Assembly: GCF_016278385.1 (NCBI RefSeq)
Contig: NZ_JADQBY010000028.1
Coordinates: 1-64,000 of the forward strand
Source: Methanolobus sp.
Lineage (GTDB): Archaea > Halobacteriota > Methanosarcinia > Methanosarcinales > Methanosarcinaceae
Direction of reading: 5' to 3'
Length of the DNA: 64,000 nt
A program made the position numbers and the translations under genes. The notes beneath the pieces were generated by a model. That model saw only the letters and a program-made list of their open reading frames with translations, searched no databases and had not been told where the DNA came from. Every line of letters starts with the position of its first letter. Position 1 is the first letter of the stretch. This document shows, in pieces, positions 3,161 through 61,851 of this stretch.

Positions 3161-3637
3161 TTAATATATTTCTATCATATTTGAGGCTGGATTGTAGTAC
3201 AATATGAATTCATCTGATCCACTGAACAATTTTACCGATGCCACTTCGGTTTCGTGTACTTTGTAAGGTACTTTTAGTCTGGTTGCATCTTTTCCATGGG
3301 ATTCAAATATGATCTCATCGGTCTGGTTTGATAATTCCATTGAATATTGCTGTCCCGCAATCTCATCCGGAAGTGGTAACTGGAAGAAGAAACTGCCTAC
3401 TTCTCCTCCTGCACTTCTGGTTATCTGCACAGCAGTATCGATATTGGATATCTGCAATGCCATATCGTTCCCGTGTATCTCAAACTCATCTCGCATTATG
3501 GTTTGTTCCGCCCTGTCCATCATACTATAGAAAGAGCTAATCACAACCATCATAGTTATTACTGTAATTGCCATAGTCAATATGAATCCTACTGTGATGG
3601 ATACCGCTCTCTCGTCATCTTTGAATTGCCGAATCAT
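3161..3637 (-). CDS. Pilin-like protein, DUF7266-like (cassette gene 4)
   Basis: 158 residues. After the charged leader MIRQFKDDERA comes VSITVGFILTMAITVITMMVV, a single N-terminal membrane helix with the class III signal-peptide look (charged residues, then Ala/Val at the cleavage point). A short globular domain follows. The start overlaps the stop of the upstream gene by 4 nt (ATGA), so translation is probably coupled. It matches the general pattern of archaeal pilin-like DUF7266 proteins, a name given from memory. A pseudopilin or minor-pilin role is inferred. Confidence 0.72.
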   Translation of the reverse strand: MIRQFKDDERAVSITVGFILTMAITVITMMVVISSFYSMMDRAEQTIMRDEFEIHGNDMALQISNIDTAVQITRSAGGEVGSFFFQLPLPDEIAGQQYSMELSNQTDEIIFESHGKDATRLKVPYKVHETEVASVKLFSGSDEFILYYNPASNMIEIY

Positions 3638-60855: not shown

Positions 60856-60948
60856 AATGATGTGGAAAGCGATACCACAATATATATTCTTTTTCATTTG
60901 GCATTAAATTGTAAAATAGTTAGTATAAAAAGATTTAAAAATAGTCGA

Positions 60949-61663
60949 ATAACAGAGTGGGATTACTCCCACTCCGTCTTCCAAGAACGCACCGTGCAAT
61001 TTTCACCGCAGTACGCTCACGCATGTCGCATGCATGATGAATAAGTAGGCGGATAGTCTTTCAACTTGTAAATGCCTCACCGAAGTGTCTTTGGCTCTTT
61101 TACATACACCGAAATCTTATTCCTTTGCTTTTGACACACCTTTGACAAGTCAGCACCCTTTCAGGTTAGGATAATAGTCCCTATCTCAGACATTACACCC
61201 GAGCCTTCGCTTAATGTCAAATCCTTTACCTGCTATGCATTAGGTCAGACCCCCACCATCTACAAAGTAGTTTGGAGCATATCAGGCTTACCGGTTTCAG
61301 TATGATGGATAGATAGTGATGGTTTAGATGCCGTCTTTACGCCGAGAATGCGATGTTCATTCGATGTGGCACTGTTCTGGTTACCACATCCGGATTCCTT
61401 GCCTTTTGGCCCAAGCGTATCACCTTATTTCGCTTGTCTGTCATAACGACGCCTGTATGGATTTACCAACGATTCACTTACGTTCATCAATGCCATCTTT
61501 CCCTAGCAGCTAGCTGGATTAAGGTACCAGGTTCGCCACATTCCATGTGAGCTTCATACCACACTATGTCTGAAATAGTATCGCATGTCACAATGGGGAT
61601 ACGGGGAACGAATCCCATAACCTCATTCCAAAGGCAATCCATTATACCGCTTTACCGTCGCAC
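60949..61663 (-). mobile_element. ORF-less group II intron
   Basis: Minus strand. The 5' end reads GTGCGAC (group II consensus GUGYG) at 61663. A canonical 34-nt domain V lies at 60985-61018: it begins GAGC, has a GAAA tetraloop on a GCGGT/ATTGC stem, and closes with GTTC. A domain VI hairpin (GAGTGGGA/TCCCACTC) follows, and the 3' end is near TTAT at 60949 (plus or minus 1-2 nt). The about 715 nt between carry no reverse transcriptase or maturase frame, so it would depend on a protein in trans. The 5' flank has CAAT-GTCT-ATTG just before the junction, a small stem. ORF-less group II introns are known in Methanosarcina. It lies between the HerA-like and flavoprotein genes. Confidence 0.82.
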
Positions 61664-61851
61664 AGAACAATAGACATTGCAAAATAAAAAAACAGTGCCA
61701 AACAAATTGAAAAATTATATATATGGCTATTCATATGTAGGTGGACGAGGAATCTCCGTCATCACATCATTCCCCTCTGATGCATTGATTCTTTTAAGAA
61801 ATGTATCATACCCCAAACTTCACCCAAACCATCGTTGTGCGAGGTTCCTCA

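Follow-up and report, generated by a model that had tools for sequence, protein, structure and literature searches.

A complete ORF-less group II intron, probably mobilised in trans and now stranded, in a Methanolobus genome assembled without a reverse transcriptase

The window analysed here, a 64,000-nt stretch of DNA from Methanolobus sp., contains a complete 720-nt group II intron without an ORF, running on the minus strand from 61663 to 60944 (intron nucleotide 1 is 61663, and the window coordinate is 61664 minus the intron position). We consider it probable that this is a non-autonomous member of an ORF-less Methanosarcinaceae lineage that was mobilised by the maturases of other introns and has since become stranded. 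Rfam group II covariance models matched both ends of the element above their cut-offs: RF00029 (D5-D6) at 61020-60944 (minus; 44.2 bits, cut-off 40, E = 2e-5 over the window) and the D1-D4 model RF02012 (D1D4-7) at 61619-61506 (minus; 35.0 bits, cut-off 34, E = 0.0012 over the window and 2.2e-5 in a local scan). The MFE z-score of the intron is -2.5. The 5′ end reads GTGCGAC at 61663, and the 3′ end, ...TTATTCGAC at 60944, was fixed by the Rfam D5-D6 alignment together with the termini common to 16 relatives. The resulting GTGCGAC...CGAC agrees with the group II termini (5′ GUGYG, 3′ AY) and with the relatives, since most of the 16 other family members begin with GTGCGAC and end in ...GAC. A preliminary description had already proposed an ORF-less intergenic group II intron of ~715 nt at 60949-61663, pointing to a 5′ GTGCG, a 34-nt domain V with a GAAA tetraloop, a domain VI stem and no maturase. 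The Rfam matches, the family ends and the empty sites described below confirm that identification, and the individual motifs recur in the relatives and in the consensus fold; its 5′ end stands, but its 3′ end was placed 5 nt too early.

The fold was examined with a consensus structure derived from the 16 relatives only, in which six domains join the 5′ end to D5, a link that the preliminary description had proposed to look for. The intron keeps 159 of the 183 consensus pairs, with both partners changed in 55 of them, and in a set of seven ORF-less introns at least one compensatory change was seen in 130 of 226 pairs. Consensus folds place domain I at 61292-61657 (intron 7-372, closed by helix 7-10/369-372), domain II at 61231-61287 (intron 377-433) and domain III at 61142-61221 (intron 443-522), all on the minus strand like the domains that follow. 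Domain IV (61020-61140, intron 524-644) is about 120 nt long, and neither it nor the rest of the 720 nt holds an ORF of note, so that the RT/maturase ORF of an autonomous intron is lacking. Domain V (60985-61018, intron 646-679; RF00029 and consensus fold) has 34 nt with the pattern GAGC...GAAA...GTTC, that is, an AGC triad and a GNRA tetraloop. Domain VI (60947-60981; RF00029 and consensus fold) carries a bulged branch-point A at 60950 (A714), the seventh nucleotide from the 3′ end, where 7-8 nt is usual for group II introns. The share of consensus pairs kept, 87%, compares with 91-99% in the other full-length family members, and slight decay of the fold is possible. Part of the shortfall, however, comes from lineage-specific helices: several of the 24 broken pairs fall in local helices such as the D2 hairpin CUAC-UUU-GUAG, which is common to the sister copies, and do not represent decay. 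With an intact core, splice-site pairing, the D5 triad and the branch-point A, the intron could still self-splice if transcribed.

The intron lies in the spacer between a gene for a FAD-dependent protein and a HerA-like ATPase gene, upstream of the latter, and both genes are on the minus strand, like the intron. The FAD-dependent product is 75-88% identical to its Methanolobus counterparts. Six corresponding spacers are intron-free (M. psychrotolerans, M. profundi, two strains of M. vulcani, M. bombayensis and a Methanolobus MAG), and the flanks, when joined without the intron, align across the junction with these sites, with a length difference of about 1 nt. Set against these six empty sites of congeners, the intron is a clean insertion. 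TATA-like motifs occur on both sides, on the plus strand for an sRNA-like element and on the minus strand for the ATPase gene, which suggests that the intron sits between divergent promoters; in such a position it may rarely be transcribed. It lies in noncoding DNA, where its splicing would matter to no gene.

The sRNA-like element is a conserved stretch of ~104 nt in the same spacer (61747-61850, plus strand) that belongs to no Rfam family. Its ends pair in a stem of 10-14 bp (GAGGAATCTC/GAGGTTCCTC), for which other species have CCTGCAT/ATGCAGG-type pairs, and it also has an inner hairpin, a C-rich single strand and, in several species, a T-rich tail. An archaeal-type TATA box is located about 25-30 nt upstream, at about 61714-61724. 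The element was found beside the same gene in loci of Methanolobus and Methanomethylovorans (L062, L063, L065-L067, L069, L071-L074, L079, L085 and L112). Its stem appears in single-sequence folds, and consensus folding on a MAFFT alignment, apparently misaligned, gave 0 pairs. We regard it as a candidate for a new archaeal sRNA.

The choice of insertion site is explained by pairing between the intron and its 5′ exon. EBS1 (AGAACAGT, intron 286-293, 61371-61378, minus), located in the loop of a GATGTGGT/GCCACATC hairpin, pairs at 8 of 8 positions with IBS1 (ATTGTTCT, exon positions -8 to -1, 61664-61671, minus), two places having at most a single G-T pair each. EBS2 (GACA, intron 222-225, 61439-61442, minus), whose position was fixed by the family alignment, forms 4 of 5 bp with IBS2 (TGTC, exon -13 to -10, 61673-61676, minus) in the family register, which was checked by hand. 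Loop-exon covariation supports the assignment of EBS1: across 17 family members at different sites, with one six-base loop position taken for each member, the loops made 84 of 102 possible pairs with their own exons, compared to 43.6 ± 4.9 when exons were shuffled among introns, and none of 10,000 shuffles reached 84.

The three closest relatives of the intron, 82-87% identical, are ORF-less fragments beside different genes in three other genomes: G001 (contig C207, intron 373-720, 87%), G047 (C162, intron 121-459, 82%) and G045 (C72, intron 371-536 and 664-720, 86%). In a tree, a long branch leads to a clade (100/100) of the intron and these fragments, in which the present intron is the only full-length member known; its tip is also the shortest in the clade (0.013 versus 0.088-0.23, where the fragments fill few columns). 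At unrelated loci, two 5′-truncated sister copies (L003:1187 and L005:1665) have break points no more than 3 nt apart at the D1/D2 boundary (371-373), which would fit a tendency of reverse transcription to halt at the folded D1. The wider family is about 53-61% identical in D1, and its maturase-bearing and ORF-less members are interleaved in the tree, which indicates that the ORF was lost repeatedly. One ORF-less member outside the Methanosarcinaceae (G279, contig C4; L185:1104-1857, minus) appears to be inserted in domain I of another group II intron. The assemblies of the genomes with sister fragments contain no intact group II maturase (G001 being an incomplete MAG). The single RT of G045, a Methanolobus genome, is encoded at L154:1300-2307 (minus; contig C68), and it was rejected as a group II maturase, with 142 bits against TIGR04416 (cut-off 300) and no GIIM domain.

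Domain IV shows 93-100% identity to that of the G001 copy, versus 84% in D3, with intron 524-584 being 100% identical. It contains a D4a-like hairpin (TGTAAA...TTTACA, 61067-61104, minus) which, judging from the alignment, covariation and the ORF starts of relatives, is homologous to the hairpin that overlaps the maturase start in ORF-bearing relatives, with compensatory changes here. Those relatives carry a maturase of ~500 aa in D4; in the present intron the hairpin has an ATG followed immediately by TAA. D4a of LtrB-type introns binds the maturase. The conservation of D4 is consistent with constraint on a maturase-binding domain, and the kept hairpin would, by analogy, fit service in trans.

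In D5-D6, the identity to the G001 copy drops to 69-77%. This part is instead 91% identical to that of a maturase-bearing intron in G266, to which D1-D4 is only about 61% identical, and the D5-D6 of the G001 copy is 88% identical to that of an intron in G023. On this pattern of identities the element looks chimeric, and exchange of D5-D6 by recombination would be the simplest reading of the mosaic. Two loci in other families of the phylum (L181:1136-1217, minus, and L182:3946-4026, plus) resemble the intron in D5-D6 only, at 88-91% identity. Tandem D5-D6 units were also seen near or after maturase-bearing Methanosarcinaceae introns (L130:2083-2169 and 2316-2392; L147:2977-3044 and 3192-3278); they are comparable to the C.te.I1 repeats of C. 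tetani that permit alternative splicing and to repeats reported for Methanococcoides burtonii (PMC8919778).

Taken together, these data favor a history in which an ORF-less lineage in the Methanosarcinaceae would have been mobilised by maturases encoded in other introns; since its closest relatives are ORF-less fragments placed elsewhere, in three genomes, it probably owed its movement to a maturase from another intron. The present copy would have entered the spacer upstream of the HerA-like ATPase gene by EBS/IBS-guided reverse splicing, presumably after the Methanolobus species diverged, and with no maturase left in the genome, at least as assembled, it is probably immobile now. A plainer account is that this is an ordinary dying retroelement whose copy no longer splices and drifts as a relic in noncoding DNA. 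The intergenic position, the single copy, the missing maturase, the 24 broken consensus pairs and the truncated sister copies all agree with it, and we take it seriously, though we doubt that it is correct. A sister copy from another genus shares this ORF-less D4, which places loss of the ORF before this insertion, and the intact EBS1-IBS1 pairing, D5 and D6, together with the shortest tip in the clade, do not suggest a relic.

The preliminary description had concluded that, if the intron still splices, a maturase acting in trans must exist elsewhere, and had proposed a genome search for it and for further copies; neither was found in the assembly (2.88 Mb in 52 contigs, 100% complete, 0.9% contamination). 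Profile searches, which extended to the contig edges, detected no RVT_1 domain anywhere in it and no GIIM domain at E ≤ 10, and the closest full maturase protein had zero matches at E ≤ 10. RF00029 gave one match in the assembly even at E ≤ 10, so that a second intron is absent from it, and the family 5′-end pattern gave two one-mismatch matches, fewer than the control. On these results we rejected a hidden maturase in the host genome as assembled, the draft thus offering no related maturase for service in trans. An origin from a plasmid or phage was rejected as well, only short conserved D1 or D5 pieces being present in three plasmids and none in phages. The conclusion that a maturase must exist is also not strictly necessary, as C.te.I1 of Clostridium tetani splices in a genome without an IEP gene (PMC3919590). 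Our main caveat is that a repeated maturase intron could be missing from a draft of 52 contigs. The strain might then possess a trans-acting maturase on a collapsed repeat or a plasmid, and in fragmented genomes such as G001 intron ends do lie at contig edges and RT genes are missing. We nevertheless find this improbable, given that no second D5-D6 and no RT or GIIM fragment turned up, that the 5′-end pattern was not in excess of the control, and that other Methanolobus genomes look similar. Among 27 of these, six had an RVT_1 match and nine a D5 match, and 18 had neither, so absence of an RT is the norm in the genus; G047 and G056 match the host genome in being intron-positive and RT-negative.

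Insertion at a terminator hairpin is a trait of class IIC introns, and a short stem that precedes the 5′ junction had been taken in the preliminary description to mean that insertion may favor such a hairpin. The stem exists (CAAT-GTCT-ATTG, 61679-61668) and overlaps the IBS2/IBS1 target, but the preference is not supported here: the stem is AT-rich, and a similarly placed stem of 4 bp or more is found before 15.6% of the positions across the window and in 15.3% of shuffles. Such stems were seen at 7 of 17 family insertion sites versus about 15% expected, a mild excess whose count includes two similar sites in one genome and which, with the 4-bp stem itself, is what speaks for a IIC-like intron aimed at a terminator. 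We rejected this as highly improbable in view of the chance-level stem, the AGC in D5, a target choice that tracks the EBS1 (8 bp) and EBS2 (4/5 bp) pairing, and a local search that found no terminator-like site on the intron strand at the insertion point, which does not follow a stable terminator or attC hairpin as group IIC sites do. Equally hard to credit is the idea that the host has domesticated a group II intron as a noncoding RNA, for which the long-conserved fold could be cited, since the orthologous spacer lacks the element in all other Methanolobus examined.

Spliceosomal introns are taken to descend from group II introns, and a key step on that path is for the ribozyme to give up its own protein and rely on others or on none. 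The sister fragments would document mobilisation without an own ORF as well as D5-D6 exchange. More speculatively, and with little confidence, we propose an archaeal modular intron lineage that is competent for splicing without any cellular maturase and swaps D5-D6 cassettes with ORF-bearing introns; if true, C.te.I1 would have a counterpart in the archaea, and the lineage would mark a natural stage on the way to a ribozyme core whose parts can be exchanged. Archaeal, intact in its anatomy and short in its core (720 nt), the intron offers a practical object on which to test maturase-free splicing.

ORF-less archaeal group II introns are already known; what is uncommon about this one is its RT-free genome, as assembled. 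ORF-less introns nearly always co-occur with related IEP-bearing introns, and the sole stand-alone exception without a genomic IEP gene in a 2015 review, C.te.I1, is bacterial (PMC4424553). Gauged by that review, an orphan ORF-less intron in an RT-free genome is unusual, and an earlier archaeal case is possible. With reference to Dai & Zimmerly and to Simon et al. 2008, the same review (PMC4424553) mentions ORF-less and nested introns of Methanosarcina. They resemble the present intron in being ORF-less, in belonging to the Methanosarcinaceae and in occupying noncoding, intron or IS sites, but they have IEP-bearing relatives in the same genome, whereas none was found here; the relatives that we did find share the ends GTGCGAC...GAC, and over D1 no full-length one is more than about 55-62% identical. 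Trans-mobilised ORF-less introns are established in Thermosynechococcus elongatus (PMC2882425), where TeI3 likewise forms an ORF-less lineage with good EBS/IBS matches and is mobilised by the IEPs of other introns. Its driver IEPs are encoded in the same genome and its copies are many, in contrast to the one copy without a driver here. The G266 intron (L180:1753-3858), from a host in another family of the phylum, has the family ends and the similar D5-D6 and is 65% identical over intron 214-548, but it is only 61-62% identical in D1-D3 and encodes a 499-aa RT/maturase in D4 (TIGR04416, 347 bits); the commonest IEP type in archaea is CL1A (PMC8919778). C.te.I1 likewise lacks an ORF and resides in a genome that encodes no IEP, but it sits within a surface-layer protein gene, carries four D5-D6 repeats and is proven to splice, whereas the Methanolobus intron is intergenic, has one D5-D6 and may splice.
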